From: Candidatus Cloacimonadota bacterium | Lineage (GTDB): Bacteria; Cloacimonadota; Cloacimonadia; Cloacimonadales; TCS61 | Direction of reading: 5' to 3' | Assembly (NCBI GenBank): GCA_030445745.1 | Contig: JASUTE010000006.1 | Location: 1-64,000, forward strand | DNA length: 64,000 nucleotides | In this document: positions 13,038 through 37,156 of the stretch, piece after piece | How positions within the stretch are numbered: position 1 is the first letter of the stretch | Layout: each line of letters opens with the position of its first letter | The notes under the pieces: generated by a model | What the model was told of the DNA's origin: nothing | The model's database searches: none | The model's input: only the letters and a program-made list of their open reading frames with translations | Made by a program: the position numbers and the translations under genes

Positions 13038-13739
13038 ATGAATAGAGATTTAATAATAAAAAGGCAATTTCAACATGGGTTGGTTGGTAAATTGATAACC
13101 GAATTAGCTCTGGAGTGGAGACAAGAGATGGATGCGGTGGGAATTATGATTCAAAATTTCGAAGATGCTTTCAAAGCTAATGAGTTAACTTTGGAATATA
13201 TTCAAGAAAAAACCAATGCCAGCTTAGAAGTTTTAAACAAAATAAGCAAATGTATAGAAGATTTTAAATTTTTAAGGTATCAGAACCGGCAAACAAATAA
13301 ATTTGATGTAAAAGAGATATTGCAACGTTGTTCAGATCTGATGAAAATGCTATTGAAAGATAAAAACATAAAATTAACTACTATCTGTGAGGTTAATGGT
13401 TTTGTGGAAGGACAAGCTAATGAATTTGCACTTATATTGCTCTCGCTTATATTGAATGCCAAAGAAAGCATTGAAGAGATGAAGCATTCTAATCCGGAGA
13501 TTAAGGTAATTTGCAAAAATAAGGGAGAAAAGGTATTGGCTACTGTTCAAGATAACGGCAAAGGAATACCTTATGCAATTCAAGATGAGTTGTTCGACCC
13601 CTTTTTTACAACTAAAGACGAACTTGAACACAGCGGTATGGGTTTGTATGTAAGTAAACTGATAATAGAAGAAGATTTTAAAGGCACACTTCGTTTTAAA
13701 AATATAAAGGAAGGAGCGGAATTTAGTTTTGAGGTATAA
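13038..13739 (+). CDS. Small soluble histidine-kinase-like ATPase lacking the H-box histidine
   Basis: 233 aa, start after GGGGGGAA. It has no signal peptide, TM helix or sensor domain; it is only a dimerisation region plus an ATPase domain. The region GKLITELALEWRQEMDAVG aligns with GEMIGNIAHQWRQPLNGLG of the first kinase, with Leu25 in place of the phospho-acceptor His. The ATPase motifs are present: SLILNAKESI (N box), DNGKGIP (G1), FDPFFTTK (F), SGMGLYVSKLI (G2). It cannot autophosphorylate in the usual way. It could pair with another kinase or act as an RsbW-like serine kinase toward the STAS protein at 27985. Three bases separate it from the next gene. Confidence 0.82.
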   Translation: MNRDLIIKRQFQHGLVGKLITELALEWRQEMDAVGIMIQNFEDAFKANELTLEYIQEKTNASLEVLNKISKCIEDFKFLRYQNRQTNKFDVKEILQRCSDLMKMLLKDKNIKLTTICEVNGFVEGQANEFALILLSLILNAKESIEEMKHSNPEIKVICKNKGEKVLATVQDNGKGIPYAIQDELFDPFFTTKDELEHSGMGLYVSKLIIEEDFKGTLRFKNIKEGAEFSFEV

Positions 13740-13742
13740 TTT

Positions 13743-16139: not shown

Positions 16140-16141
16140 CT

Positions 16142-19015
16142 ATGGAAGCAAGAATTTATGAATTGAAAGTTCTGTTAGTGGAAGATGAATTAATTATAAG
16201 AGAATCCTTTCGATCTCTGCTGAAAAGAAGAGTAAAAAAATTCATAACTGCCAAAGATGGATTAGATGGATTGGAGAAATTTAAACAGGAACGTCCAGAT
16301 ATTGTGATGACTGATATAAAAATGCCTAAGATGGATGGTCTGGAGATGATAGCTAAGATAAAAGAGATAGATCCCGATACGATAATTGTGGTGATTTCTG
16401 CTCACAGCGAAACAGAATATTTACTTGATGCTATTGAGGTTGGAGTTAACAATTTTCTTATAAAACCGGTGGATAAGCCCAAATTATATAATTTATTGGC
16501 TAAGTATGTCCAAGACTTGAAGCTGAAAAGTGAATTGGAACAAAAACGTTTGGAAAAGGAGCAAACAGAACTACAGTTAAGAGAGAAAGAGAAGAAGTAT
16601 CGCAGAGTATTCGAAGAATTTCAGGACTTGTATTTCGAAATAGACCTTTCAGGTTATATCCTTACCGTAACTCCTTACATTCAAAAGCTTACCGGCTATA
16701 CACCGCAAGAAGTAGAAGGGAAAAATATTGAACTCTTTTACAAAAACAGAGCAAGCAAAGAAAAATTCTTAGATAAATTAGTTCGCAATAGTAATGTGGA
16801 AAATTTTGAAACAGAACTGCAAAGAAAAGATGGTAGCAAAATAATTGTGAGTATAAATGCCCATCTTATTTATGATAGAAATGGTAATATTAAAAATATC
16901 ACTGGTGTAATTCATGATATCACTGCCAGAAAGAAAATTGAAGAAGAGCTTAGCCAGAGTTTAAAATTACAGCAGTTATATTCACAGGTTACACAGATTT
17001 TTATTGGTAGTGAAAATTGGGAATATAGTGTAGAGAAAGCTCTGCAAATAATGGGGGAAACGGTACAAGTAAGTAGAGTTTTGTTGTTTGAAGATTCACA
17101 AAATGGATACCAAACCACCAATTCTTTTGAATGGAGCAGTGATGAAATAGAGACAAATGCTAACCAACTCCAGGGAATGCATTTTTCACAAACACCAGCT
17201 TGGAAAGCTCTGCTACAAGAAGAGGGCGAAATTTTATGCAATGATATCAATAAATTGCCAAAAGATATACGCGAAAATTTAAAGCCACTTGCTGTTCGTT
17301 CTCTGCTAGTTTGTCCACTGGTTATTAGGAATGAAGTGAAGGGATCTCTTGCCTTTGTGGAATGTGGGTACGATAAAAATTGGACAAAAGATGAAAGGGA
17401 AATGTTGCATACGATTTCCAATATTATTGCAAATTTTATAGAAAAAAACCGCGCCTACGAAAGATTAATGATTAGTGAAGAGAAGTTTAGGGTGATAGGT
17501 TCAGCTGCCAATGATGCAATAATAATGGCCGATTCCAAAGGCAATATAAATTTTTGGAATTCTGCTGCTGAAAAAATATTTGGATATTCCCAAACAGAAG
17601 TAATTGGGAAAAATGTTCATACCTTGATTGCTCCAGAAAGATACATGCAAGAGTACAAAAAAAATTGGTTCCATTTTCAAAATACAGGAGAGGGTAAAGC
17701 CATTGGTACAACTTTAGAATTAAGTGCACTAAGAAGAAATGGAGAAGAGTTTCCAGTTGAACTTTCACTCTCTTCGGTAAAAGTTCAAGATGAATGGAAT
17801 GCAGTGGGTATACTGCGTGATATTACCCAAAGAAAAGAAGCTGAAAAGAAGATAAAGCTGCAGAATGAAAATTTACTGCGGGAATTAGAAATAGCTGCTT
17901 CGGTGCAGCAGTATTTGCTTCCTAATTGGTTAGTTTACGAGAAAGAGATAGTATTTTCTTCTGCATATACACCATCTTCGGAAGTAGGCGGTGATATATT
18001 CGATATAAAAAAAATCTCTTCCTCTCGTTATGTGTTATATGTAGGCGATATTTCTGGTCATGGTGTGCAAGCTGCACTACTGATGACAGCTGTGCGTTCT
18101 ACTATCTCGATGCTGGTGGACAATATGAAGACCAGGTTAGAACCTTATAAAATAGTAAATGAGCTTAACCGGATTATAAGTAAAGAATTATTCCACAGAA
18201 ATTACCTTACTATGGTGTTTGCAATTATTGATTTGGAAAAGGGTGTAGTGAAATATTTTAATGCAGGCCATCCACCAATAATTAAATATGATATAAAACA
18301 AAGAGAAACTGAATTACTTCCCCCAAAAGGTGGAGTTCCAATTGGATGGGAAAAAGATTACCACTATCGCCGTGAAGACCAGGACAGCTTTGCTATCGAT
18401 GAAAACCAGCTATTTTTCCTTTATACCGATGGTATTTTTGAATGTGAGGATAAACAGGGCAATCAATTAGGATTGCAAGGACTAAGGGAATTTTTGAATA
18501 AAAATATTGTAAATGCCAACAGTCTGATAATTCCTCACAAAATTAAACACAAACTAATAGAAAAAGAATACGATGTCAGCTCCGATGATTTCACTTTAGT
18601 ATGTTTTCGTAAATTGCTGCCTTCCGATAATAAAAAGAAATCTTATCTAATTCGTTCTTTGGTAGAAAATATCGGAGAAGTGGCTATTCATTGTGAGAAT
18701 TTTATTAAAAGTAAGTTTAATGACCCCGATTTTGCTGCGAAAGTGGAAATTGTGGTCGATGAATTTTTGAATGAAGTAATAAAACGTGGCTATGTAAACA
18801 AAGCTGAAAGCCTTATAATGCTACAATTGGAAACTGAAGATATTCTGAAACTAACATTTTGGGATAAAGGTGATGATTGGGGAATTCCTATTAACAAAGG
18901 AAAAGCTGATGAAATGGGATTCCAGCTTATTTTTACTATAGCTAACAACATTGTTCGTAACAGATATGGAGATATTAACGAAACGATAATAGAGATGCCT
19001 TATGAAAAAAAATAA
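16142..19015 (+). CDS. Response regulator with PAS, GAF, PP2C phosphatase and degenerate ATPase domains (2)
   Basis: 957 aa, two bases after the previous gene. Receiver 5-120 with Asp58 (VMTDIKMP) and LIKPV; PAS about 145-260; GAF about 285-440 (VSRVLLFEDSQNGYQTTN, LLVCPLVIRNEVKGSLAFVE); PAS about 445-565. The PP2C domain, about 590-805, has all metal motifs: GGDIFDI, GDISGHG, YTDGIFE, SDDFTLV. The C-terminal RsbW-like domain is weaker than in its paralogue: the N box reads DEFLNEVIKRGY and the glycine-rich box DEMGFQLIF, so ATP binding is doubtful. It shares its core layout with the previous protein but has an added GAF domain, so it should read different signals. Its 3' end overlaps the first glycosyltransferase gene by 14 bases. 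Confidence 0.9.
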   Translation: MEARIYELKVLLVEDELIIRESFRSLLKRRVKKFITAKDGLDGLEKFKQERPDIVMTDIKMPKMDGLEMIAKIKEIDPDTIIVVISAHSETEYLLDAIEVGVNNFLIKPVDKPKLYNLLAKYVQDLKLKSELEQKRLEKEQTELQLREKEKKYRRVFEEFQDLYFEIDLSGYILTVTPYIQKLTGYTPQEVEGKNIELFYKNRASKEKFLDKLVRNSNVENFETELQRKDGSKIIVSINAHLIYDRNGNIKNITGVIHDITARKKIEEELSQSLKLQQLYSQVTQIFIGSENWEYSVEKALQIMGETVQVSRVLLFEDSQNGYQTTNSFEWSSDEIETNANQLQGMHFSQTPAWKALLQEEGEILCNDINKLPKDIRENLKPLAVRSLLVCPLVIRNEVKGSLAFVECGYDKNWTKDEREMLHTISNIIANFIEKNRAYERLMISEEKFRVIGSAANDAIIMADSKGNINFWNSAAEKIFGYSQTEVIGKNVHTLIAPERYMQEYKKNWFHFQNTGEGKAIGTTLELSALRRNGEEFPVELSLSSVKVQDEWNAVGILRDITQRKEAEKKIKLQNENLLRELEIAASVQQYLLPNWLVYEKEIVFSSAYTPSSEVGGDIFDIKKISSSRYVLYVGDISGHGVQAALLMTAVRSTISMLVDNMKTRLEPYKIVNELNRIISKELFHRNYLTMVFAIIDLEKGVVKYFNAGHPPIIKYDIKQRETELLPPKGGVPIGWEKDYHYRREDQDSFAIDENQLFFLYTDGIFECEDKQGNQLGLQGLREFLNKNIVNANSLIIPHKIKHKLIEKEYDVSSDDFTLVCFRKLLPSDNKKKSYLIRSLVENIGEVAIHCENFIKSKFNDPDFAAKVEIVVDEFLNEVIKRGYVNKAESLIMLQLETEDILKLTFWDKGDDWGIPINKGKADEMGFQLIFTIANNIVRNRYGDINETIIEMPYEKK

Positions 19016-23828: not shown

Positions 23829-24717
23829 TAAAATTTCGGTTATAATGCGCTGTAAGAATTCTGATTGGGTTATTGCCCAGGCTTTAGATTCACTTTTTTC
23901 GCAAACTTATAAGGATTTTCAGCTTATCGTGGCGGATTCCGGCTCTACCGACAGAACTTTAGAGATAGTGCAGCAGTATTCCTGCCAATTAATTCAAATA
24001 AAACCAGATGATTATTATCCAGGAGAGGTTTTGAATATGGCAATCGAACAAGCTGCGGGGGATATTGTTGTATTTCAAAATTCAGATGCAGTACCATTAA
24101 CACCATATTGTTTGGAACGCTTGCTAGCAGCTTTCGATGATTCAGAAATCTCTGCTGCTTTTGCTCGTCAAATTCCACGACCAGAGGCTAAAAGCTGGGT
24201 GAAAAGAGAATATGGCTCCAGTTTTCCCAATAGTGCTACTCCGCCCACTTGGATAACACTCTCTCTACCTATGGCCGCTATTCGTAAGAAGGTTTGGCAC
24301 AAACATCATTTTTTCACTGAATGTTGGGGTTCGGAAGACACAGAATGGGGACATTGGGCTAAGCAAAATGGTCTTCATGTTCAATATGTAAAAGATGCTA
24401 TCGTGATGCATTCCCATAATTATAATTTAAAACAGCTTTATGCCCGCAAGTTTATAGAAGGAGAGGCAGATGCCTTTATTTATAAGAATAAATATACTTT
24501 AGCCAAAGCTGCAAAACAATATTTGGCAGCTGTAGGCGGAGATTTATGGGCTGGGGTGAAAGAGGGTAAAGTCTCAGAAATTTGGCAAACTCCATTGCGC
24601 AGGTTAGTTCATTTTTTTGCTTATTACAAAGCGCACCGATTTGGCACAGCCAGACGAGTTAGTGGCTCTAGTAATCGCAGCCGAGCCCAAAAGGAAATCT
24701 TGAGCAGATATGAGTAG
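23818..24717 (+). CDS. Glycosyltransferase family 2
   Basis: 299 aa. I chose ATG 23818, five bases after GAAGG, over an upstream ATG at 23806 without a ribosome site. GT-A fold: ISVIMRCKNSDWVIAQALDS, then SLFSQTYKDFQLIVADSGST, a nucleotide-binding DSGSTDRT, and VFQNSDAVPL in place of the usual DxD. HFFTECWGSEDTEWG matches the ED catalytic-base region of rhamnosyltransferase-like GT2 enzymes. It probably adds a sugar to the lipid-linked repeat at the inner membrane. It overlaps the deacetylase gene by 11 bases and the next gene by 8. Confidence 0.9.
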   Translation: MAANKISVIMRCKNSDWVIAQALDSLFSQTYKDFQLIVADSGSTDRTLEIVQQYSCQLIQIKPDDYYPGEVLNMAIEQAAGDIVVFQNSDAVPLTPYCLERLLAAFDDSEISAAFARQIPRPEAKSWVKREYGSSFPNSATPPTWITLSLPMAAIRKKVWHKHHFFTECWGSEDTEWGHWAKQNGLHVQYVKDAIVMHSHNYNLKQLYARKFIEGEADAFIYKNKYTLAKAAKQYLAAVGGDLWAGVKEGKVSEIWQTPLRRLVHFFAYYKAHRFGTARRVSGSSNRSRAQKEILSRYE

Positions 24718-25822
24718 CACATATCGAATTTTTATAAGTGGCATGGCCTACGATAATGGCAAATCGGGAATCTCATTATATATCCGTAAAGTGGTTAAAT
24801 ATCTAAGCAAAGATCATCAGATCGAACTTCTAATGCTGAAAAAAGATGCAAAAATCTTCTCGATAAAAAATAAAAATCTTAAAATTATAACAGTTAGCAA
24901 TTTTTGGGCTAAGCCCGTGATAAATATGTTGTGGCATCTATTTATTCTACCATTTACCAGAAATTATAAAAAATACGATTTTATATTGTTACCAGCTGGG
25001 AATAGACGTATTTTTTGTTACTATCCTTGCTATACAATAGTCACATTTCACGATCTTTCCCAATTTTACATAACTCATAAATACGATAGATTTCGGATGT
25101 TTTATATAAAAAAAATTGTCCCTTTTTTCCTAAAAAAAGCCAATTCAGTGATGGCTATAAGTAATTGTACCAAAAGAGATTTGCAAAAATTTTATAAATT
25201 GAAAAAAGTATGGGTCAACTATAATGGCTATGAAAAACCAGTAGTTTCCCAAGCTCAAGTTAAAAAAGTAGCAGAGGTTGAAGGTAAATTTTTGTTTTAT
25301 TTAGCCCGAGTGGAACACCCTGGGAAAAATCATTTGAATTTGATAAAAGCTTATGAACAACTTCCGAAAGATGTGAAACAGGAGTATGAATTGGTTTTTG
25401 CCGGCAAAGTTTGGGAAGGCTCGGAACCTGTAATGCACTATGTGGCCAATTCGGCTGACAAAGCTAGAATAAAATTTTTGGGTTTTGTAGAAGAAGCTGA
25501 GCTTAGCTGGTTATACAAAAATTGTAATTTGTATGTTTTCCCCTCTTTTTACGAAGGTTTTGGCTTACCGCTATTGGATGCTATGAACTACGGTGTGCCG
25601 ATTATATGCTCTAACACCTCTTCTTTACCGGAAGTGGGCGGGGATGCTGTGCTTACATTTGATCCGAGCGATAGCAAGCAAATTGCCGAGAGAATTTTGC
25701 AGGTTTTACAAGATAAAGATTTACAAAATAGGATGATAAAAGCAGGTTTTGAACGATTAAGTAATTTTGATTGGGCTAAACACGTGCACAAAATTGTGGG
25801 AGATTACGAGAAAAATGGGTAG
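24710..25822 (+). CDS. Glycosyltransferase, GT4 family (mannosyltransferase-like)
   Basis: 370 aa. An N-terminal loop GKSGISLYIRKVVKYLS is followed by a GT-B core. The C-terminal donor half has FYLARVEHPGKNHLNLIKAY, KIKFLG-type strand RIKFLGFVEEAELSWLY, and PSFYEGFGLPLLDAMNYGVP with Glu and Asp in the EX7E positions. It ends in LPEVGGDAVLTFDP. It is closest in pattern to the mannosyltransferases of lipopolysaccharide loci; the actual sugar is unknown. The stop codon overlaps the start of the next gene (ATGGGTAG), so translation is coupled. Confidence 0.9.
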   Translation: MSSTYRIFISGMAYDNGKSGISLYIRKVVKYLSKDHQIELLMLKKDAKIFSIKNKNLKIITVSNFWAKPVINMLWHLFILPFTRNYKKYDFILLPAGNRRIFCYYPCYTIVTFHDLSQFYITHKYDRFRMFYIKKIVPFFLKKANSVMAISNCTKRDLQKFYKLKKVWVNYNGYEKPVVSQAQVKKVAEVEGKFLFYLARVEHPGKNHLNLIKAYEQLPKDVKQEYELVFAGKVWEGSEPVMHYVANSADKARIKFLGFVEEAELSWLYKNCNLYVFPSFYEGFGLPLLDAMNYGVPIICSNTSSLPEVGGDAVLTFDPSDSKQIAERILQVLQDKDLQNRMIKAGFERLSNFDWAKHVHKIVGDYEKNG

Positions 25823-27161
25823 GGATCTGAGAGAACTGGAAAAATTAGAGAAAAAATTCAATAGGAAGCAAAAACCTAATATTGCTGTAAATATTCAATC
25901 TAAAATTATTTCAACGGGTTTGTTTATAATCTCACTTTTTATTAAGATTATTGAAATAATAATCTCTATTATTTTTGTAATTTTTGCTGTTGTTGTTCAC
26001 TTTGCATTACTTATAAGAAAAATTTTTACCGGGAAGCCGATCTTGGCAAGAAAACTTATTTTTGGTAAAAAAGCGATTCCTACCCAAATAGCCTATTTTA
26101 ACCTAAAGAACCAGCTGCTAAGGAATCTAGCCTTATTTTACTATGTTATTTTAGGAAAATTATCACTCACTGGCATTGGGATAAGAGAATATAACGCAGA
26201 AAAAAGAATAATTGGAGATTCCTATGCCTACAGTCAAAAACCAGGGATTTTTAATTTATGGTATATCCGCGAGAGCAGTCGTACAGGCTACGAAGGTAAG
26301 CTGGATACCGATTTGGAATATATTTACACTCGTGGTTATTTGAAGGATTTCTTATTGATTTTAAAAACACTGCCAGCGATGGTTTATAATTCCAAAAAAG
26401 ATTCCTATCCTAGCAAAATCAATATGTTTGGAATTAAGCTTCTGAATAAACGTATGAGAGAAGCCATAACTTTAATAGAAAGGCTTGTTAAGTATAGTAG
26501 GCAGGAGAAGATTTTCTTTGTCAATCCAGATTGTTTGAATAAAATATTTAAAGATAAAACCTATTATAGAATTCTAAAGGAAACTGAGTATATTTTCCCA
26601 GATGGAATAGGGATAAATATAGCAGCTAAGATGTTAAATAATCCGCTATTAGAAAATCTGAACGGTACCGATATGCTGCCATATTTGTGCGAAAATGCAG
26701 TAAAAAATAGGTTCAGAATATTTTTGTTGGGTGCTCAACCTGGGGTAGCTGAAAAAGCTAAAGCTAATTTAATAAAAAAGTTTAATGGTTTGCAAATAAG
26801 TGGTACGCAGCATGGTTATTTTGGCAAAGAGGAAGAGCAAAAAGTGATAGAAAAAATAAACAAAAGTAAAACTGACATCTTATTGGTAGCGCTGGGAGTT
26901 CCTAAGCAAGAGAAATGGATTTGTGGGAATTTGTCTAAGCTGCAGGTAAAAGTTGCTATGGGAGTGGGAGGGTTATTCGATTTTTACTCAGGAAAGATAA
27001 AAAGGGCACCCCGCTGGATGCGCGAAGTAGGTTTAGAATGGCTGTACAGAGTCTTACAAGAGCCAAAGCGGATGTGGAGAAGATATATAATCGGGAATCC
27101 TTTGTTTTTGCTTAGAGTAATAAAGTGGAAAATGGCAAAACAAAATATAGGAGAACTTTAA
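25815..27161 (+). CDS. Fusion of a degenerate sugar-transferase domain and a GT26 (WecG/TagA) glycosyltransferase
   Basis: 448 aa from ATG 25815, which overlaps the previous stop. Residues about 45-190 resemble a bacterial sugar transferase (PF02397). A membrane segment is followed by GKPILARKLIFGKK, a ...VILGKLSLTGIGIRE block matching NVLKGDMSLVGPRP, then KPGIFNLWY and DLEYIYTRGYLKDFLLILKT. The catalytic Asp-Glu before LPQ is Arg-Asn here (RNLALFYYV). Residues 205-440 are a clear WecG/TagA/CpsF domain: FPDGIGINIAAKML, LNGTDMLPYL, FLLGAQPGVAEKAKANL, GVPKQEKWI. GT26 enzymes add the second sugar (often ManNAc-type) to undecaprenyl-PP-sugar. The dead domain may anchor the enzyme beside the initiating transferase encoded next door. 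Confidence 0.85.
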   Translation: MGRDLRELEKLEKKFNRKQKPNIAVNIQSKIISTGLFIISLFIKIIEIIISIIFVIFAVVVHFALLIRKIFTGKPILARKLIFGKKAIPTQIAYFNLKNQLLRNLALFYYVILGKLSLTGIGIREYNAEKRIIGDSYAYSQKPGIFNLWYIRESSRTGYEGKLDTDLEYIYTRGYLKDFLLILKTLPAMVYNSKKDSYPSKINMFGIKLLNKRMREAITLIERLVKYSRQEKIFFVNPDCLNKIFKDKTYYRILKETEYIFPDGIGINIAAKMLNNPLLENLNGTDMLPYLCENAVKNRFRIFLLGAQPGVAEKAKANLIKKFNGLQISGTQHGYFGKEEEQKVIEKINKSKTDILLVALGVPKQEKWICGNLSKLQVKVAMGVGGLFDFYSGKIKRAPRWMREVGLEWLYRVLQEPKRMWRRYIIGNPLFLLRVIKWKMAKQNIGEL

Positions 27162-27162
27162 A

Positions 27163-27882
27163 ATGCCACTGGATCCAGATGTTCGCAAGGAATTTTTGAA
27201 TAAATATACAGATAAAAATCTGAAAAAAAGGCAGAAAAAATATTACAAAAAAGTAGTTATTTGGCAGTTGGTAGTAAAAGTTTCCTACTTTTTGAAGCGT
27301 ACACTTGATATCTTGTTATCACTTTTTTTTCTTATACTTTTGTCTCCAGTTTTTCTTTTTACTGCTCTTGCAATCGTAGTCGAAGATTCTGGTCCCATAT
27401 TTTATACACAAACTCGAATTGGAAAAGATGGAAAGCCATTTGATTTTTACAAATTTCGCTCTATGTTGGTGCAAGCAGAGCAAAAAAAAGATGAACTTTT
27501 TAAAAATAATGAATCTAAAGATGGTGTTATCTTCAAAATGAAAAAAGATCCTCGCATTACTAGAATAGGGCGTTTTATTAGAAAATTCAGCATAGATGAA
27601 TTACCTCAACTGTTAAATGTGCTAAAAGGAGATATGAGTTTAGTGGGACCACGACCGCCTTTGCCAGAAGAGGTGAATAAATACAGTTTGGAAGACAGGA
27701 AGCGCTTGCATATTAAACCAGGAATAACGTGTATCTGGCAGGTGAGTGGGCGTAGCGATATTCCCTTTAATAGGCAGGTAGAGCTTGATAAACAATATAT
27801 AAGTAGTCAAAGTTTTTGGAAGGATTTATTAATTTTGCTGAAGACAATTCCTGCTGTAATTACTGGTAAGGGCGCTTATTAG
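27163..27882 (+). CDS. Initiating sugar-phosphate transferase (undecaprenyl-phosphate sugar phosphotransferase)
   Basis: 239 aa, one base after the GT26 gene. It is a monotopic polyprenol-phosphate hexose-1-phosphate transferase that starts the repeat unit. Membrane hairpin about 45-75 (FLKRTLDILLSLFFL). Motifs in order are GPIFYTQTRIGKDG, FYKFRSM, FSIDELPQLLNVLKGD with the catalytic Asp-Glu, SLVGPRP, and IKPGITCIWQVSGRS. Its length suits the short PglC/WcaJ-core type without an N-terminal multi-pass domain. All key residues are present, unlike the two related domains in the flanking genes. The 102 bases after it carry a TTGACA box before the STAS gene. Confidence 0.92.
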   Translation: MPLDPDVRKEFLNKYTDKNLKKRQKKYYKKVVIWQLVVKVSYFLKRTLDILLSLFFLILLSPVFLFTALAIVVEDSGPIFYTQTRIGKDGKPFDFYKFRSMLVQAEQKKDELFKNNESKDGVIFKMKKDPRITRIGRFIRKFSIDELPQLLNVLKGDMSLVGPRPPLPEEVNKYSLEDRKRLHIKPGITCIWQVSGRSDIPFNRQVELDKQYISSQSFWKDLLILLKTIPAVITGKGAY

Positions 27883-27984: not shown

Positions 27985-28329
27985 ATGAAAATTGATTTCC
28001 AAAAGGATGGAAAGATTGGGATTATTAAAATATTTGGGCGCTTGGATGCGGCTAATTCCAAGGAATTAAAAGAGAAATTCCAAGGTTATTTGGATGAGGT
28101 GGTTTTTTTTGTTATGGATTTTTCGGAATTAGAATTTATCGATAGCACGGGGCTGGGAGCTATTATAAGTTCATTAAAGCATGCTTCCGAGATGGGGGGA
28201 GATGTTTATATAGCAAATTTGCAACCCAAACCTCGCATGGTTTTCAATATAACTAGGGCTTATAAAGTTTTTGAAGTTTTCGACGATGTAGAAGCAGCTG
28301 TTTCTGCAATTAAAGAAATTGCCAAGTAA
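27985..28329 (+). CDS. STAS-domain anti-sigma factor antagonist-like protein
   Basis: 114 aa, start after GGGAGG. Single STAS domain: GIIKIFGRLDAANSKELK at the N-terminus, then MDFSELEFIDSTGLGAI, with Ser54 in the position phosphorylated by RsbW-type kinases in SpoIIAA/RsbV proteins. It should bind and be phosphorylated by an ATPase of the RsbW kind and be reset by a PP2C phosphatase. Both domain types are encoded at 13743-19015. No separate anti-sigma or sigma factor gene is visible in the window. Placement inside the polysaccharide locus suggests that it regulates this pathway. Confidence 0.9.
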   Translation: MKIDFQKDGKIGIIKIFGRLDAANSKELKEKFQGYLDEVVFFVMDFSELEFIDSTGLGAIISSLKHASEMGGDVYIANLQPKPRMVFNITRAYKVFEVFDDVEAAVSAIKEIAK

Positions 28330-28338
28330 TGGTGGAAT

Positions 28339-29790
28339 ATGAAATGTTTAATATATTCTCCTAACTCGCAAACTAAGTGGATGAAAGATTATTTCCCCGA
28401 TGTGCACCCCTTTTTTTTGAAAATACTTAATAAACCGCTGCTGGAATACTACATAGATTTTTGTGTTATTAATAATATTAGTGAGATCAGAGTAATGATA
28501 AATAACTCTTCGCGGGTTTTGGAAGAGTATTTTGAAGATGGCACCCAGTGGGGAGTAAAATTAAGCTATAATTTAGCAAAGCCTGAAGATAACCTTCAGA
28601 AAATTTTATTCAAAAATTCCAACTTTTGCAAAGATGAAAAGCTATTTATTATTCAAGGCTACCAGTTTTTGCATTACCACAAGGAAAAGAAACAATATAG
28701 ATTTTTGCAATCTTCAGAAAATACAAAATTGGGTGATGTGAAGAATGGATTATTCCTGTTAGATAGGACAAATATTTTAAATTCCAAATTGGAGGAGATA
28801 GAGGAATGTGAGGAACCGGAGCTGGGAATTACGCAGATAGATGGGATAAAAAAATATTTTGCTTTGAATATAAGCCTATTAAAAGAACATAATCAGGAAT
28901 ATGTGTTACCTGGTTATAACAATGACAAAGATGAATTTATAGGCAAAAATGTAGTTTGCGCTAATTTCAAAGAATTAAAAAAACCGATAATGATCGGTGA
29001 TAATGTTCAAATAAAATCTAAAGCCAATGTAGGGCCCAATGTAATTTTAGGTAATAATGTTATAATAGATAGTGGCACCAAGGTGGAGCAGAGTATTATC
29101 TATGATCTTTCCTATATTGGCAGTGATTTAGAAATAATAGATAAAATAATTTACAAAAAGCGGTTAATAGACCCTTTCAGCGGTGAATTTACCCACATAG
29201 TGGACAATTTTTTAGTATCCGATATTCAGGAAAAGTTGGTGCAAAGGTTTTTTAAAAGGCTGCTCAACAGTGTTTCAGCATTTTTGTTGGCAATAATTGG
29301 TCTGATTCCCTACATTTTTTTCTGTTTGCTTCATCGCTTAGGTAGATTAAGAAGTAAGAAACGCGAATTTTATGTGAATAGAAATGCTAAAACTAAAATT
29401 TTTACCATCTGGAAAGTTGCTAAGCCCAATTTTATCAGCACTTTGTTTTTCCGATTATCTTTGAATAAATATCCCTTATTATGGGCAGTAGTGAAGGGAG
29501 ACATCTATTTAGTAGGGAATCATCTTATTCCCAAATGTCCGCAAGGTTTAATAAAAATGAATAATCTGCCCAGCTATCACCCGGGGATTTTTGATTATTC
29601 CGATATGTTGCCTAGCAAAGTGAGTGATATTGAATTTGAATTGAATGAGCTTTACTACTGCAATAATTCATCTTTATGGTTAGATATAAAAGTTTTCTTC
29701 CGTGCTATATTTAATAGAATCTTTTCTGTTTGGGATCGGATTAATGAGAGGGAAACCAGATTCCCAGACAAAGGTGATTATGTTAAATAA
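28339..29790 (+). CDS. Nucleotidyltransferase-like / beta-helix / degenerate sugar-transferase fusion
   Basis: 483 aa. Residues 1-210 look like an NDP-sugar pyrophosphorylase: LNKPLLEYYIDFCVINNI, and VLEEYFEDGTQWGVKLSY. The glycine-rich GGxGTR loop is absent from the N-terminus (IYSPNSQTKWM). Residues about 228-275 are hexapeptide repeats (IGDNVQIKSKANVGPNVILG). Residues 310-475 look like a bacterial sugar transferase: a membrane segment, then YPLLWAVVKGDIYLVG matching LPQLLNVLKGDMSLVG, then HPGIFDY and SLWLDIKVFF. The catalytic Asp-Glu is lost, reading Asn-Lys before YPLL. Both ends appear catalytically dead, so a scaffold or allosteric role is more likely than an enzyme. Nine bases after the STAS gene. 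Confidence 0.72.
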   Translation: MKCLIYSPNSQTKWMKDYFPDVHPFFLKILNKPLLEYYIDFCVINNISEIRVMINNSSRVLEEYFEDGTQWGVKLSYNLAKPEDNLQKILFKNSNFCKDEKLFIIQGYQFLHYHKEKKQYRFLQSSENTKLGDVKNGLFLLDRTNILNSKLEEIEECEEPELGITQIDGIKKYFALNISLLKEHNQEYVLPGYNNDKDEFIGKNVVCANFKELKKPIMIGDNVQIKSKANVGPNVILGNNVIIDSGTKVEQSIIYDLSYIGSDLEIIDKIIYKKRLIDPFSGEFTHIVDNFLVSDIQEKLVQRFFKRLLNSVSAFLLAIIGLIPYIFFCLLHRLGRLRSKKREFYVNRNAKTKIFTIWKVAKPNFISTLFFRLSLNKYPLLWAVVKGDIYLVGNHLIPKCPQGLIKMNNLPSYHPGIFDYSDMLPSKVSDIEFELNELYYCNNSSLWLDIKVFFRAIFNRIFSVWDRINERETRFPDKGDYVK

Positions 29791-30772
29791 GCTAAATTCA
29801 ATGCTCTGGGGTAAATCGTTGCAGGCTTATGTAATTAGCCGGAATCCTATTATTATCATAAGTTTTTGGTATGATTTTATCAACAATCTGGAAGCATTTT
29901 TGGAGATAATACCAGAGGCGAAAAAGGTTATTTTAATCTTTAAATGCGGTCATTACAAAAGCAGGGAAAGTGCTAGTGAAATAGCTAAACAGATGCAGAA
30001 ACTATCCATTGGATTACCAAAATTAGATTATTATGTGCTGGCAAATTCGCAGGAAGAGTTACAGAACTTTTTTTTGGAAAAAGTTAAAGCGGTGTTTGTT
30101 AATCAAAATGCCTTTTTAGATGAAAAACGATATAAGATTTTGAATTTCAAAAAGAAATATAAAGCAGTATATCTGGCTAGATTTTCCCCAATAAAACGGC
30201 ATTATTTAGCAAAAAAAATAGATAATATTTTGTTTATAGGAAATTATAGCAAAACCGATAAAACATATTTTCAGGAAACTATGCTCGAATTTGGTCAAAA
30301 AGCTGTTTGGAAAAGGAAAATATTTGCCTTACGGGTGCCTTACTATTTTAATAAAGCACATGTGGGGTTGATACTTTCTGAAGTTGAAGGTGCTTCTTAT
30401 GTGACTACGGAATATCTGTTGTGCGGCTTACCTGTGGTTTCCACTTTGAACAAGGGAGGACGGAATGTTTTCCTACAAAAATATGGAAAATTGGTTGAAG
30501 CAGACCCCGAAGCTGTACAAGAAGCAGTAGAAGAATTTATAGATAAGAAATATTCTGCTGAGGATATTCGTGAAACAGCAATAATGCATATGAAACAGCA
30601 TAGAAAAAGATTTATAGAGTTAATAAATAAAATTTATGCTGAAGCAGGAGTTAACAAAGATTTTGCTAAAGAGTGGGATAAAGTATTTACACATAAAATG
30701 GGTTTACGATGTGGAAACTGGCCGTGGATTTATAGGAAGAGGATTCTAAAAGAAAGTGAAAGAATAGCTTAA
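29780..30772 (+). CDS. Glycosyltransferase-like protein (GT4-type donor half)
   Basis: 330 aa from ATG 29780, which overlaps the preceding stop by 11 bases; a longer frame from 29702 would overlap that gene by 89 bases with no ribosome site. The N-terminal half shows no familiar motif. The C-terminal part has VGLILSEVEGASYVTTEYLL and CGLPVVSTLNKGGRNVF, which match the EX7E and GG donor region of GT4 enzymes, and KKYKAVYLARFSPIKRHYLA in the linker. A late RCGNWPWIYRKR tail is unusual. It probably transfers one sugar of the repeat unit. One-base overlap with the next gene. Confidence 0.75.
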   Translation: MLNKLNSMLWGKSLQAYVISRNPIIIISFWYDFINNLEAFLEIIPEAKKVILIFKCGHYKSRESASEIAKQMQKLSIGLPKLDYYVLANSQEELQNFFLEKVKAVFVNQNAFLDEKRYKILNFKKKYKAVYLARFSPIKRHYLAKKIDNILFIGNYSKTDKTYFQETMLEFGQKAVWKRKIFALRVPYYFNKAHVGLILSEVEGASYVTTEYLLCGLPVVSTLNKGGRNVFLQKYGKLVEADPEAVQEAVEEFIDKKYSAEDIRETAIMHMKQHRKRFIELINKIYAEAGVNKDFAKEWDKVFTHKMGLRCGNWPWIYRKRILKESERIA

Positions 30773-32799
30773 TGGAAATACCACCAAACGAACCATATTT
30801 ATTAGAAGAGGAGAAAAGTGATTTCTTCAAATTCGATAAGCGTATTCTCTTTTTAACTATCAAGAGAAAATTGATGCTAATCGTAATCACTTCTTTTTTG
30901 GTTAGTGTAGTGGTAGCAGTGTGGTCTAGTATAGCTATAAAGGGAGAGTTTGTAGCTAAAACTACCCTGATAAGATATAGTAAAAATATTACTCGTAATT
31001 CACCTATTCCTTATTTGTACCAGGATCTTAGTTTAAATACTATAATGCAATATGTGCGGATGCGAGAAAATTTAGAGGAAATAATAAACAGACTGAATTT
31101 ACAAGTCACTCCTCAGCAGTTATTTGGGGCAATTTCGGTTGAAAGGGGAAGTCGATCTGATATACTAGTAATTTCAGCAGCTCATAGCAGCCGCGATGTA
31201 GCTGTAGATATAGCCAATACAACCGCTGAAGTTTTTATTGAAAACTATAATCAGATATTAAATAGTGCTACCAAGGATATTTACGATTACTATGTGAACC
31301 AGCGTAAAGAACTTTTGCAGCAATTGGAAAAAGATCAGCAAGTAATTGAAGCATTCCAAAAAAAGAACAATTTGGTTTCTATTGAAGCCGAGATATCTCG
31401 TAAACAAGATCTTTTAAAGCAATTGGAATTAGATAGATTGAATACTAAGAGACAGATAGATGCGAACAAATCGATCTTGGGAGATTTAAATGAAAGACTG
31501 AATAACCTGGAAGACGATATTATTCCCGTTGGATATACAATAAAAAATACTATTGAAAGTCAGATTAAAAAGAAAAAGAATGAATTATCAATGCTTCTGG
31601 AACAGTACACGCCAGAGCATCCCAAGGTTAAACAATTGCAAGCTGAAATTGAGATACTACAGCAGAAACTGGAAGAAGCTAAAACTAATCGCAAAAATAA
31701 AGATTTTGTAGCTGATGAGATCTCTTATGCCAAAGATCCTACCAGGCAACAGCTTCAATTAGATAAAAACAAATATGAATATGAGTTGCGAGCTTATAGC
31801 CAAAATTTAAAGCAATTTGACCAGCAGATAGAGGATATCCAGAAGGAATTAGAATATCTTTCTCGCAAGCAAAAGGAATTTTACCAATTGAATAGAGCAG
31901 AAGAGCTTACTAAAAATCAACTCGATATGACTGAAAATAGGATAATGGATATAAAAATGGCTATGGAATCGAATGTAAGCGATTTTGAAGTTCTAGAATA
32001 TGCCATACCACCAGAGGATACTGTTGGAACTGGACGAAAAGTTATAGTTTTATCAGCAGGTATAATTACATTTTTCGGGTTGCTCTTCTTCTTCTTAATC
32101 AGAGCACTTTTAGATAACACAGTAAAATCGGAATATGATTTTAAAGAAATTTTAGATATCAAACTGTTAGGTGAAATTCCCAATAAAGAGGAGGCAGATC
32201 CGCTTTACTACCATTCTCAAATGCAACTTGTCTTTGGCCAGTTTATGAATTCTTTGCCTTCCAAAAAACCACAGATTGTCAGCTTTGGCAACGATAAAGC
32301 GGAAACAGGCAAAACTTATCTTATCAAGGAATTCATAGAACTACTTACCTCTCAAGGGAAACGGGTATTATGGATAGAATCTATTTTTGAAAAAGATGAA
32401 GAGATAAGCGATTTTATAATAAATAAACCATTATATAATGGTGAGAAAATAGACAAACATAACATAAACATGATAACAGAAAAACTTCATAAGAGTTATT
32501 TCCTATGCGATGATGATATTTTTAGGAAGGTATTGGATAAGCAAGAGATAAAAATATTTCTATCTCAGCTTTCCGAGTATGATGTTATAATTTGGGAATT
32601 GTTCGAAGTTCATTATTATATGCAGTTATTCACCACTATTGCTTCTTGTACCGATTTGCTGGTTTTCGTGGCACGCTTTGCCGATTCCGGCCGAGATGGG
32701 TTGAGCAATGCTATAGAGTTTTTAAAGGAAAACTCCACGGTTCCACTTGCTGGTATTTTAAACGATGTGGAGGAGGCTTATGCTAAAGTTAAATATTAA
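30772..32799 (+). CDS. Wzz-type polysaccharide co-polymerase with degenerate BY-kinase-like domain
   Basis: 675 aa. TM about 36-57, a Wzz periplasmic domain, and a long coiled coil about 165-400, with VEYLSRKQKEF-type GNVR region (LEYLSRKQKEFYQLNRAEE) before TM2 about 423-446. The cytoplasmic part (about 495-675) resembles bacterial tyrosine kinases. It keeps only GNDKAETGKTYL with Lys514 of Walker A. Walker A' reads RVLWIESI without its Asp, Walker B reads DVIIWELFE, and there is no C-terminal tyrosine cluster (the end is EEAYAKVKY). It should set chain length and link the inner-membrane machinery to the export pore, probably without kinase activity. Confidence 0.85.
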   Translation: MEIPPNEPYLLEEEKSDFFKFDKRILFLTIKRKLMLIVITSFLVSVVVAVWSSIAIKGEFVAKTTLIRYSKNITRNSPIPYLYQDLSLNTIMQYVRMRENLEEIINRLNLQVTPQQLFGAISVERGSRSDILVISAAHSSRDVAVDIANTTAEVFIENYNQILNSATKDIYDYYVNQRKELLQQLEKDQQVIEAFQKKNNLVSIEAEISRKQDLLKQLELDRLNTKRQIDANKSILGDLNERLNNLEDDIIPVGYTIKNTIESQIKKKKNELSMLLEQYTPEHPKVKQLQAEIEILQQKLEEAKTNRKNKDFVADEISYAKDPTRQQLQLDKNKYEYELRAYSQNLKQFDQQIEDIQKELEYLSRKQKEFYQLNRAEELTKNQLDMTENRIMDIKMAMESNVSDFEVLEYAIPPEDTVGTGRKVIVLSAGIITFFGLLFFFLIRALLDNTVKSEYDFKEILDIKLLGEIPNKEEADPLYYHSQMQLVFGQFMNSLPSKKPQIVSFGNDKAETGKTYLIKEFIELLTSQGKRVLWIESIFEKDEEISDFIINKPLYNGEKIDKHNINMITEKLHKSYFLCDDDIFRKVLDKQEIKIFLSQLSEYDVIIWELFEVHYYMQLFTTIASCTDLLVFVARFADSGRDGLSNAIEFLKENSTVPLAGILNDVEEAYAKVKY

Positions 32800-33835
32800 T
32801 TTTTTTATTTTAATCCTTTTGATAATTTTTATCGCTGGTTGTAGCTCTATTCCAATATTACAAGAAAGCAGAGTAGAAGCACAACCCCAATATTTGGAAG
32901 AGGTAAAAACAGCGCCTGAAGATGATACCAAAATAATTGAAGAATTACAAGATTTACAGAAGGTAGAATATGATGAATACAGAATTGGGCGTGGTAATAC
33001 TTTTGATGTAAAAGTTGTTGGGGAACCCGAACTATTTACCGAAAATGCTATTGTGAAAAATGATGGGTATATTTCACTGCAGATGATAGGTGAAGTTTAC
33101 GTTGCTGGTATGACTTTACCAGAGGCAGTTTCTGAAATTGAAAAGTACTATGCAAAATATTTGCGGGATCCAAAAGTATCGATTATTCCCCGCGAATTGA
33201 AAAGTGCAAATGTAACTATAATGGGCAAGGTGAAGCAACCAGGTAATTATGAAATAACTTCTAATATGAGAGTATTGGATGTAATAGCGGAGGCAAATGG
33301 ATTATCTACAGGATATGTTAATGGTGATACTATAGAGATTTCCGATTTAACCGGAGCGTATCTGGTGAGAGATAATAGGATTTTACCAGTAGATTTTTAT
33401 GAACTTGTTAGAAAAGGTAATATGATACACAACATTCCTGTTTTAGATGGAGATTTTATATATATACCATCACTAATAAACCAAGAAGTTTATATCTTAG
33501 GTAATGTTAAATCCCCTAGTAAATATCCTTATAAAGAAAATATGACTGTGATGCAGATGATAGCTCATGCTGGCGGAATAGATACTGGTAGTTATGCCAA
33601 CGTGTATATTATTCGTGGTGGACTTAACCATCCACGTGTTTTCGAGGTTAGTACCAAAGCTATTCTAAAAGGCAATGTACAAGACTTTCCTATAAAACAA
33701 AATGACATCGTCTATGTTTCTAGAGATTTTTTCAGCTCTTTCAACGAGCTAGTAGGAAAGGTATTGCCCGGCTTGCAAGCCATTCAGTCTGGCTGGATGA
33801 TAAAAGGCTTTATTGAAGACGAGATTAATAAGTAA
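32780..33835 (+). CDS. Outer-membrane polysaccharide export lipoprotein (Wza-like)
   Basis: 351 aa. Start chosen at ATG 32780 after GGAGGAGG; this overlaps the previous gene by 20 bases. Lipoprotein signal peptide with IAGC and Cys21. The Poly_export domain (about 60-150) has YRIGRGNTFDVKVVGEPELF and GYISLQMIGEVYVAGMTLPEA. Two SLBB-type domains follow: VTIMGKVKQPGNYEIT with VLDVIAEANGL, and VYILGNVKSPSKYPY with VMQMIAHAGGI. Wza-family proteins form the octameric pore that carries capsule or exopolysaccharide across the outer membrane. It works with the Wzz-like protein encoded just upstream. The C-terminal amphipathic helix (FFSSFNELVGKVLPGLQAIQ) fits the membrane-crossing barrel. Confidence 0.92.
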   Translation: MLKLNINFFILILLIIFIAGCSSIPILQESRVEAQPQYLEEVKTAPEDDTKIIEELQDLQKVEYDEYRIGRGNTFDVKVVGEPELFTENAIVKNDGYISLQMIGEVYVAGMTLPEAVSEIEKYYAKYLRDPKVSIIPRELKSANVTIMGKVKQPGNYEITSNMRVLDVIAEANGLSTGYVNGDTIEISDLTGAYLVRDNRILPVDFYELVRKGNMIHNIPVLDGDFIYIPSLINQEVYILGNVKSPSKYPYKENMTVMQMIAHAGGIDTGSYANVYIIRGGLNHPRVFEVSTKAILKGNVQDFPIKQNDIVYVSRDFFSSFNELVGKVLPGLQAIQSGWMIKGFIEDEINK

Positions 33836-33838
33836 ACA

Positions 33839-35200
33839 ATGCCGGGTTTTACAGAATCACTATCACAATTTAAATATATTCTGTTTTTTGTTACCCTAAT
33901 ATTTGGAGTTCCTTTAGGATATTTTTTATCTATAAATTTTCCGAAAATAGAAAAAGTGATTTTTTTCTTTATGATCTTTTTTACTGCGCGGATGGAAGAT
34001 ATAAATTTTGTTTCTCATGAACTATATCGAGGAACTAGCAGAGGTTTTGAAATAGGAATGGTGGATTTGATGACTTTTATCATCTTCCTGCTAATTCTAC
34101 ACCGACGTAATAGATATCCGATAAGGTGGTTTCCACCAGGCTCAGTACTTTATTTAAGCTATTTCTTTTTCAGTTTCCTATCGATAGGGAATGCTACTTT
34201 ATATTTAGAGTTTTTCTACGAAATTTGGAAAATGATTCGTATGTATTTCTATTTTTGGGTTATATACAATTATATAAATAGCTTTGATAAATTTGAAGAA
34301 ATGATGAAAGGTTTCTCGATTATTATCATTTTTATCAGTGTGTTTGTATTAAAACAAAAATACATCGATGGAATTTTCCAAACTCCCGGTCCTTTCCCTC
34401 ATCAAAATTCTCTGGTAATGTATCTAACGATATTGAATTGTTTGGTTTTTGCCTATATTATGAATAAAAAGCGTAAGATAAAGTTATGGTATTGGTTACT
34501 AGTTTTAGGTTTGGGCACGGTTTCTGTAATTTCTACATATTCACGAGCAGGTTTGGTTGTGTATGCTATCGCTATTGCTACTGTGTTATTTTTCTCGTTT
34601 GTGGAAGGCGCCTCAGTCCGTAAGGTGATAATAACGTTCATGGTTATGGTTTTGGGAGTTATTGTTCTAATAAGAGCAATGGATACTATTATACAAAGGT
34701 TTGAAACAGCCCCAGAGGAATCAACAAATACCCGCATTTTGTTAGCACAATCTGCTGTGAATATGGCTAATGATAAAACTTTAGGAATTGGATTGAATAA
34801 TTTTGGGTTAAAAGTTAACTTACCCTATCCTTATAGTAGTCATATAGAGGGAATTACACCTGAATCTAAGAATGGATTGGTAGAAACAATTTACTTGATG
34901 ATTGCAGCTGAAACTGGTTGGCATAACTTAGTTGTATTCCTAATTATGTTATTTTGGTTCTATTTTAGGAATTTTGCTAGCTACATAAAATATCGCAATA
35001 CAGATATTCATTACTTGACGATTGGTATAGCTGGTGGTTTATTAGGAATATATTTGCAATCTTCCCTGGAATGGGTTTTGAAGCAGACGAATAATTTCTA
35101 TCAGCTAATGATGGTGTTTGCCATCATAGTTGTATTGCCCAAGTTAGAAAGAAGATACAAAATATTACAACGGAAAAGGAGCATATATTATGCAGGATAA
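33839..35200 (+). CDS. O-antigen ligase/polymerase-like membrane protein (Wzy-type)
   Basis: 453 aa with about ten hydrophobic segments across the whole chain. Between two helices it has the long extracytoplasmic loop of Wzy_C/O-antigen ligase proteins (PF04932). Charged residues flank FEIGMVDLMT, FPHQNSLVMY and YSRAGLVVYAIAI, and NTRILLAQSAVNMANDKTLGIGLNNFG carries the conserved R and the G.G.N motif. It probably polymerises repeat units on the periplasmic face. Wzy and WaaL cannot be told apart by eye; Wzx, Wzz and Wza genes alongside favour Wzy. Ten-base overlap with the next gene. Confidence 0.85.
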   Translation: MPGFTESLSQFKYILFFVTLIFGVPLGYFLSINFPKIEKVIFFFMIFFTARMEDINFVSHELYRGTSRGFEIGMVDLMTFIIFLLILHRRNRYPIRWFPPGSVLYLSYFFFSFLSIGNATLYLEFFYEIWKMIRMYFYFWVIYNYINSFDKFEEMMKGFSIIIIFISVFVLKQKYIDGIFQTPGPFPHQNSLVMYLTILNCLVFAYIMNKKRKIKLWYWLLVLGLGTVSVISTYSRAGLVVYAIAIATVLFFSFVEGASVRKVIITFMVMVLGVIVLIRAMDTIIQRFETAPEESTNTRILLAQSAVNMANDKTLGIGLNNFGLKVNLPYPYSSHIEGITPESKNGLVETIYLMIAAETGWHNLVVFLIMLFWFYFRNFASYIKYRNTDIHYLTIGIAGGLLGIYLQSSLEWVLKQTNNFYQLMMVFAIIVVLPKLERRYKILQRKRSIYYAG

Positions 35201-35576
35201 AAAAAACGAAAGTTACCTCGATAATATTAATCCAACCATAAAGAAAACTTTGAACCATGAGCAGAAACAAGAGATAAAAAGTGTTTTAAAGAGGTTATTA
35301 CCACCAGCATATGGGAAAGAAGTAATAGATATAAGATTTACCTTCTGGTTTTTAAAAAAATGGTATTTTGTGTTTATATTTGGTTTAGATCAGCGGCGGG
35401 ATATTGAATTTATGCCAGATCAGCGCCAAAACAGAGCGCTAATAATAATATTTAAAGCTATTATTTTTCTATTAATAATATTAGGTTTATTAGCTTCTGC
35501 TTTTGGTATTTTGTATGCCTTGAAATCTATTTCGGGAATAGATCTTTTCCCATCTTCCCATTTTAATATTCTCTAA
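35190..35576 (+). CDS. Small membrane protein of unknown function in polysaccharide locus
   Basis: 128 aa, overlapping the Wzy-like gene by 10 bases. The N-terminal half is soluble, with a compact motif LLPPAYGKEVIDIRFTFWF then KKWYFVFIFGLDQRRD. One long hydrophobic segment, about 85-112, follows. I recall similar short proteins with a 'VDIR ... GxDRR' signature beside cell-surface genes in other bacteria, sometimes misnamed as an aromatic-pathway enzyme. There is no enzymatic evidence here. It probably belongs to the export complex. Eight bases before the flippase gene. Confidence 0.55.
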   Translation: MQDKKNESYLDNINPTIKKTLNHEQKQEIKSVLKRLLPPAYGKEVIDIRFTFWFLKKWYFVFIFGLDQRRDIEFMPDQRQNRALIIIFKAIIFLLIILGLLASAFGILYALKSISGIDLFPSSHFNIL

Positions 35577-35584
35577 GAGGATAA

Positions 35585-37156
35585 ATGCAGGGGAGTTATA
35601 AAAAATCAGTTTTCTTAAACACTTTGGTTACTTACAGTTCTGTTTTTGTAACCTTTATTACAGCTATATTCACTACCCGAATCTTATATTTAGGGTTAGG
35701 TGAAGTGGCTTATGGCTTTTGGGTTTTAGTTTGGTCTATTTTTGGTTATTCCCTACTATTAGATTTTGGTTTTGGCACCTCAATAAAAAAATATACTGCG
35801 GAAGTTGTGATAACACAAAACTATGAAGTTTATAACAAACAAGTTAGCACAGTTTTTAGCACCTATGCGTTTATGTCGATCATCATTATTGCTGCTACTT
35901 TTATTGTGCAATTCTATTTACAAGAGATATTTCAATTTCCAAACGATGCTAATATTTTGTACTTTAGAAAGGTTTTTGTTATATTGGGAATTGGGGTAGC
36001 GTTTACCTTTCCTACAGGAGCTTTTCAGGAAATATTAAACGGATTGAATAAAATCTATATTACTCATCTAATTAAAATTTTCAATCGTCTTTTTACCCTT
36101 TTAGGTTTATGGCTTATCTTAAAATTTAATTATGGTTTGATCTTAATCGCTACTTATTCTATTATTATTAATTTTCTTTCTAATGTTGTTATCGCCTATT
36201 TTGCCTTTGGAAATCTTCCTAAGATGAAGATTAAGCTGTCCAATTTTGATTTTTCCATGTTAAAAGATGTTGTTAGTTTTAGCTTTTTTGCCTATTTAAT
36301 TATGTTTTCTAATATGATTATTTACAAAACAGACCAGCTTGTATTAGGCGTAATGTTGGGAGTTAGCTCTGTGGCTGTGTATCAGATTGGATCCAGAATA
36401 TCAAATATTTTAAATAAGATTTCGGGACAATTCCAAAATTCGCTTTCTCCTATAGCAGCAACACTTTTTAAAGATAAACAGCACAAACGTTTGCAGAATA
36501 TACTTCTACGAAGCAATAAGCTTATAACTTTTATAGCTGTAATCAATTTTATCATTTTAACTATTTTAGCAAAACCAATATTAAATGTATGGTTAGAAAT
36601 AGATAATCCCAAAATACTACAAGTGGCTTATGTAATGAATGTCTCTGTGTTATTGCTCATATTGTTTAGAAGTGGATCTTCCAAAGTACTTTTAATGACA
36701 GGTCATCATAAATTTCTGTCTAAAGTTGCATTGATAGAAAGTTTTTTTAACATTGTTTTCAGCATTATTTTTATCAAGTTAGTGGGTGTGATTGGAGTTG
36801 CCTTAGGAACTCTCTTACCTAATTTCATTATTAGTGTATTCTTTATTTTCCCTGCAACATGCAGATTTAGTAAAGTGAAGCCAACCTACTATTTTTATAA
36901 GATCTATCTACCGGTTTTGCTCAATACTATAATTCCTGCAGCTATTTTGCTTATTTTCCGAAATTATTTAGTATCTGGAAATTGGAACCTGTGGAAATTA
37001 GCTTATTCAGCAGCTCCAGCAGCAATTGTTTACATTTCTACAGGCTATCTATTCATACTTACAAAAGCAGATAAACAAGAGTTGAAAGACACCATACAGC
37101 CAGTATTTCAAAAATTCAAAACAGCTATTTTTAGGAAAAACTTGACTGAACAATAG
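35585..37156 (+). CDS. Polysaccharide flippase (Wzx-like, MOP superfamily)
   Basis: 523 aa with about 14 predicted transmembrane segments. The start is GSYKKSVFLNTLVTYSSVFVTF, and the family pattern LGEVAYGFWVLVWSIFGYSLLLDFGFGTSIKKY matches lipopolysaccharide or exopolysaccharide flippases of the Polysacc_synt family. Further helices include KTDQLVLGVMLGVSSVAVYQIG, a conserved segment with the D...G pattern. It flips the undecaprenyl-linked repeat to the periplasmic side for Wzy polymerisation. It is the last gene of the locus; the next gene starts 31 bases later with its own ribosome site. Confidence 0.9.
   Translation: MQGSYKKSVFLNTLVTYSSVFVTFITAIFTTRILYLGLGEVAYGFWVLVWSIFGYSLLLDFGFGTSIKKYTAEVVITQNYEVYNKQVSTVFSTYAFMSIIIIAATFIVQFYLQEIFQFPNDANILYFRKVFVILGIGVAFTFPTGAFQEILNGLNKIYITHLIKIFNRLFTLLGLWLILKFNYGLILIATYSIIINFLSNVVIAYFAFGNLPKMKIKLSNFDFSMLKDVVSFSFFAYLIMFSNMIIYKTDQLVLGVMLGVSSVAVYQIGSRISNILNKISGQFQNSLSPIAATLFKDKQHKRLQNILLRSNKLITFIAVINFIILTILAKPILNVWLEIDNPKILQVAYVMNVSVLLLILFRSGSSKVLLMTGHHKFLSKVALIESFFNIVFSIIFIKLVGVIGVALGTLLPNFIISVFFIFPATCRFSKVKPTYYFYKIYLPVLLNTIIPAAILLIFRNYLVSGNWNLWKLAYSAAPAAIVYISTGYLFILTKADKQELKDTIQPVFQKFKTAIFRKNLTEQ

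Follow-up and report, generated by a model that had tools for sequence, protein, structure and literature searches.

Why should a glycosyltransferase of the GT26 family carry at its N-terminus a sugar-transferase-like domain that has lost its catalytic residues, next to a gene for an intact sugar transferase? The question is raised by a polysaccharide cluster in the window, i.e., the whole stretch of 64,000 nucleotides analysed here. An initial annotation of this DNA had proposed that the dead copy acts in membrane docking, or as one half of a heterodimer, handing the first product to the enzyme that probably adds the second sugar. The relevant features, all on the same strand, are:

24710..25822, + strand: GT4 glycosyltransferase gene, directly upstream of the fusion
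25815-27161, + strand: pseudo-PGT–GT26 fusion CDS, 448 aa
25815..26414, + strand: pseudo-PGT domain (hereafter P1), residues 1-200 (PF02397, hhalign, Foldseek)
25926-26030, + strand: hydrophobic helix of P1, about residues 38-72
26106-26384, + strand: degenerate catalytic half of P1, residues 98-190 (Bac_transf match)
26121..26126, + strand: R103-N104 codons, at the position of the Asp-Glu dyad (alignment of 21 P1 and 32 PGTs)
26175..26183, + strand: I121-G122-I123 codons, at the position of the PRP motif (same alignment)
26415..27161, + strand: GT26 (WecG/TagA/CpsF) domain, residues 201-448, with C-terminal membrane appendage and stop (PF03808 3e-68, TagA 7mpk)
27163..27882, + strand: intact small monotopic PGT, 239 aa, with DE dyad and PRP (PF02397 1.3e-69; TIGR03025 above cut-off; AF2 match to PglC 3e-16)

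The start of the fusion CDS overlaps the end of the GT4 gene by 8 bp, and its stop lies 1 bp ahead of the intact PGT gene. Several lines of evidence confirm that residues 1-200 are a degenerate monotopic phosphoglycosyl transferase (PGT) domain. The Bac_transf profile (PF02397) matches residues 98-190 at 33.6 bits against a cut-off of 27 (36.7 bits when the domain is taken by itself), and is likewise matched by 14/14 P1 homologues. A profile of 14 homologous P1 domains aligns with the adjacent intact PGTs over 153 columns (hhalign, probability 98.1, E = 7.8e-14) and, searched against the PDB, retrieves WbaP at 2.7e-7; these matches, far above chance, rule out a fortuitous likeness to PGTs. The 153-column match takes in the hydrophobic N-terminal helix, and the residues before 98, namely this helix and the beta hairpin between it and the degenerate catalytic half, are tied to PGTs by profile-profile comparison only. 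The motif pairs listed in the initial annotation (GKLSLTG for GDMSLVG, KPGIFNLWY for KPGITCIWQ, LILKTLPA for LLKTIPA) are present, and its view of the N-terminal region as PGT-like holds.

The predicted fold points the same way, positively but more weakly than for a normal PGT. The AF2 model of P1 reached a moderate pLDDT of 66, from a small input alignment that included intact PGTs, and the intact neighbour, modelled with the same aligned sequences, reached 80.6 and matched PglC at 3e-16. The best 4 chains of 350,542 retrieved by Foldseek for the P1 model were WbaP and PglC (prob 0.91-1.00, E 0.012-0.025), and VIA-align gave Z scores of 5.3, 5.2 and 4.9 to WbaP and PglC vs. 3.5 for the next chain. 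The comparison of folds that had been proposed, between residues 1-200 and the 239-aa transferase, thus returned PGT folds for both, if less strongly for P1. The rest of the protein belongs to GT26: Glyco_tran_WecG (PF03808) matches residues 258-424 at 3e-68, and TagA of T. italicus (7mpk) can be aligned with residues 201-438 at 8e-55; the alignment runs through residue 238 and retains the catalytic (general base) Asp65 and the C-terminal Arg appendage.

The Asp-Glu dyad with its Mg site is a defining feature of the monotopic PGT superfamily (PMC10519829), and it is this feature that P1, a match to the PGT family by profile and fold, lacks. In an alignment of 32 PGTs, 21 P1 and 16 copies of a second degenerate PGT domain (P2, below), Asp-Glu occurs in 32/32 PGTs and 0/21 P1. 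Residues D145-E146 of the neighbouring PGT correspond to R103-N104 of the window protein, and P163-R164-P165 to I121-G122-I123, so both losses had been read correctly from the start. Asp-Glu is also missing from the P1 copies of Azospirillum, G853 and G925, such that none of the 23 fusions found keeps it; PRP is absent from all 21 aligned P1 and is retained, without Asp-Glu, in the G853 and G925 copies, which lie outside the alignment set. In addition, about 40 residues of the active-site loop are deleted from P1, and their counterpart in the neighbouring PGT (M101-G136) contains 12 or more residues that are invariant among the cluster PGTs. The initial annotation would have been overturned by an Asp-Glu pair elsewhere at the active site, and none was seen in the aligned active-site region of P1. 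Because the dyad and the loop segment are missing, we call the domain a pseudo-PGT rather than a PGT; the loss of catalytic residues in all homologues shows its inactivation at the level of sequence.

Looking for the same domain order elsewhere, as had been suggested, yielded 23 pseudo-PGT–GT26 fusions, spread over the window's phylum and three further groups of bacteria, and these copies in other genomes and phyla rule out that P1 is an oddity of one genome. P1 was found in 14 of 124 genomes of the window's phylum (always within a GT26 frame), in 6 copies among 240 genomes of the phylum of Lentisphaerota locus L018 (‘PVC’), once on an Azospirillum plasmid and twice in the phylum of locus L024 (G853 and G925). 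The P1 profile found no relative in viral contigs, and in 237 genomes of the phylum of an Omnitrophota locus its matches all looked like intact PGTs and did not exceed 44 bits. No P1 was detected at E 1e-14 in 289 genomes of one alphaproteobacterial class, a result that says little because the Azospirillum copy is itself poorly recognised by the profile. The scan of genome contigs returned mostly GT26 alone. Separately, most genomes of the phylum have a match resembling L003 (G000:C9:8922-9386), a 509-aa PGT-like protein with a DE dyad, GVRA for GPRP and a profile match from position 34.

The intact sugar transferase, correctly assigned to the next gene in the window, follows the fusion in 17 clusters: 13/13 of those with downstream sequence in the window's phylum, and 4 in PVC, in one of which it is split by a frameshift. 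On the Azospirillum plasmid it lies 2.5 kb downstream of the fusion, and in G925 the arrangement is condensed into an in-frame, Pfam-confirmed triple fusion of pseudo-PGT, GT26 and active PGT (663 aa; L133:28-2016 / L138:5458-7446). Neighbouring genes that elsewhere form one fused frame often work together. P1 is not strictly required, as shown by its losses and by three clusters that have no intact neighbouring PGT: in G517 an intact pseudo-PGT–GT26 sits beside a PGT reduced to an N-terminal remnant (L129:5157-5504), and in G450 and G853 there is no PGT next to the fusion. P1 is missing from the GT26 of related clusters that retain the PGT (G090, G075, G067, G006) and is replaced by a GT4 fusion (GT4-GT26) in G013, G037 and G044; GT4-P1-GT26 fusions also occur (G043, G055, G373).

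Docking for hand-off explains most simply why a GT26 enzyme should bear a conserved dead PGT domain and be linked to a live PGT. P1 would represent a PGT domain minus its nucleophile and active-site loop, with the membrane helix and much of the soluble fold kept; it would tether the GT26 enzyme to the membrane and dock it against the active PGT encoded by the next gene, and the undecaprenyl-PP-sugar made by this PGT would pass straight to GT26 and be extended at once. We consider this the most likely role of P1, with a probability of roughly 0.48; the physical contact, the membrane topology and the hand-off itself are what we infer. By analogy with the TagA family, whose members have to get to the membrane before they can act on undecaprenyl-PP-GlcNAc (PMC6493773), GT26 probably adds the second sugar. 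The losses and replacements of P1, the three clusters without an intact PGT next door, the single occurrence of the triple fusion and the membrane appendage that GT26 already bears at its C-terminus all count against docking. Moreover, small monotopic PGTs are listed as monomers, and the PGT domains of the WbaP dimer, which dimerises via other domains, face away from each other (PMC10942596), so that a heterodimer would be without structural precedent. Of the original proposal, therefore, a PGT-derived, dead and selected domain with a conserved link to the intact PGT stands, and the simple heterodimer does not fare well.

An alternative to docking is that P1 is a membrane anchor only, its helix keeping GT26 at the membrane without any specific binding to the PGT. 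In its favour, a strong hydrophobic helix is present in 20/20 P1 homologues examined (Kyte-Doolittle maxima 1.9-3.2), GT26 needs the membrane, and P1 can be lost or exchanged for a GT4 fusion. In the window this helix (38-72), at the place of the re-entrant membrane helix of PGTs with its Ser-Pro kink, contains no Pro and is modelled as straight; the Pro is retained in many relatives. However, the soluble half has been retained and surpasses the helix in conservation (mean top-residue frequency 0.50 vs. 0.36), and it has conserved residues of its own (R152, R/K156 and E168, none of them conserved at the equivalent PGT positions, and also S at 122). This is more than a pure anchor would need, and GT26 has its C-terminal appendage in any case, making a role in anchoring alone rather unlikely.

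It might also be that P1 is a lipid-binding or regulatory module, which binds undecaprenyl-P or undecaprenyl-PP-sugar, or tunes the activity of the PGT, perhaps under the control of a STAS protein. The genes downstream of the PGT bear on this role:

27985..28329, + strand: single-domain STAS protein next to the PGT (PF01740 3e-20; same place in relatives)
28339..29790, + strand: second pseudoenzyme, with a nucleotidyltransferase-like domain lacking the GGxGTRL signature, a left-handed beta helix and a degenerate PGT (P2)
about 29224-29748, + strand: P2 degenerate PGT domain (dyad N-K in the window)
30772..37156, + strand: Wzc-like, Wza-like (Poly_export), O-antigen ligase/Wzy-like, small membrane protein and Wzx-like genes of the same polysaccharide cluster

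The STAS gene of the cluster, a GT26-STAS fusion in G1003 and the PGT-derived fold of P1 favour a module of this kind, for which the small protein EpsW, an activator of a PGT, provides a precedent (PMC12802240). P1 has lost PRP, the loop and many of the residues that are invariant in PGTs, so it is unlikely to retain a ligand site, and we regard a lipid-binding or regulatory function as unlikely too.

The gene order GT4 – (P1-)GT26 – PGT – STAS – (nucleotidyltransferase-like + P2) – Wzc – Wza – Wzy-like is repeated throughout the phylum and, for the most part, in PVC (with Wzc and Wzx called from operon place and similarity between clusters), and the finding thereby extends to a cross-phylum module with two pseudo-PGTs. 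The second pseudoenzyme gene, on which this finding of the initial annotation is silent, is conserved in most clusters seen, across phyla. In P2, the Glu of the dyad is Lys or Arg in 16/16 and the Asp is kept in 15/16 (Asn in the window), leaving D-K in most relatives; a single clade of P1 and P2 was neither rejected nor established (AU p = 0.14). A tentative extension, which we would put below even odds, is an undescribed and widespread initiation complex, in which P1 (on GT26) and P2 (on the degraded nucleotidyltransferase) would be structural partners of one active PGT and STAS would be the on/off switch. The fusion in G1003 (L141:5078-6628), lying between the PGT gene and the nucleotidyltransferase-like/P2 gene, reads GT26-STAS-STAS, with one STAS assigned by eye. 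Upstream in the window (13038-19015) are a HATPase gene and two SpoIIE-phosphatase/response-regulator genes. Together with the STAS gene they suggest, by analogy with SypA/SypE, a partner-switch control of polysaccharide initiation, and the linked STAS protein may help to find what STAS regulators like SypA of Vibrio fischeri act on (PMC10120452).

Were P1 the decaying vestige of an ancestral bifunctional PGT-GT26 enzyme, retained only because the reading frame runs through it, its long branches and independent losses would be explained, and a bifunctional fusion with an intact dyad does exist (L009, in the cyanobacterium Pantanalinema). The GT26 tree places every fused copy from the window's phylum, PVC and Azospirillum in one clade (SH-aLRT 97), whose 22 fused and 8 unfused rows require five state changes, the pattern expected from few gains and several losses, although its inner branches are often weak. 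The L009 GT26 lies outside this clade. Furthermore, dN/dS of P1 is 0.047, similar to that of the active enzymes (GT26 0.069, GT2 0.057, PGT 0.034), as estimated from one pair (G086/G087), the others being saturated at synonymous sites. P1 is hence kept by purifying selection, which rules out a pseudogene or free drift and largely refutes a remnant; this origin, at odds also with the open frame of all 23 copies and a conserved motif common to several phyla, is very unlikely. That P1 is still an enzyme working with other residues is hardly credible, since, despite its strong conservation and new conserved Arg and Glu residues, the nucleophile Asp, the Glu, PRP and the loop are missing in nearly every copy with no common replacement, and an intact PGT is usually adjacent.

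Little is known about how lipid-linked sugars leave the initiating PGT for the following glycosyltransferase and how this shared entry point is controlled. With a dead PGT domain that sits on the likely second enzyme, is conserved in several phyla and in one genome forms a single chain with the active PGT, the hand-off of a substrate can be tested directly. How does it compare with known systems? P1 shares with PglC and other small monotopic PGTs, and with WbaP, the fold, the membrane helix and the motif order (PGI, Y, LLKTxxA), but lacks Asp-Glu, PRP and about 40 loop residues, and its helix in the window, with no Pro, appears to be without the Ser-Pro kink. The C-terminal domain resembles TagA/WecG/CpsF throughout, including Asp65, Gln167-Glu168 and the Arg-rich appendage, and differs from them in the added N-terminal pseudo-PGT; the positions of TagA Thr37 and Arg83 are Phe and Asn in the window, which may mean another sugar donor or acceptor.

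Pantanalinema L009 combines the same two families in the same order, but has Asp-Glu and, as noted, a GT26 from outside the pseudo-PGT-fused clade. The N-terminal part of this protein (L009:5464-7104) resembles by eye the N-terminal (MshEN-like) domain of type II secretion ATPases, with no Pfam match there. Consistent with the claim that no such system was known, we found no description of a dead monotopic PGT domain in the literature searched, although the PNAS 2021 monoPGT network paper may mention one. Close in design are the bifunctional monotopic PGTs (Bi-PGTs), which PMC10942596, citing O'Toole et al. 2021, describes as a PGT catalytic domain fused to another functional domain. Like them, the window protein unites a PGT-type domain with another enzyme of the pathway in a single chain; unlike them, it has no functional PGT domain, for the catalytic residues are gone and every copy found is dead, and the active PGT usually has its own gene next door. 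The pseudo-PGT–GT26 protein is thus a variant of the known PGT-glycosyltransferase fusions.
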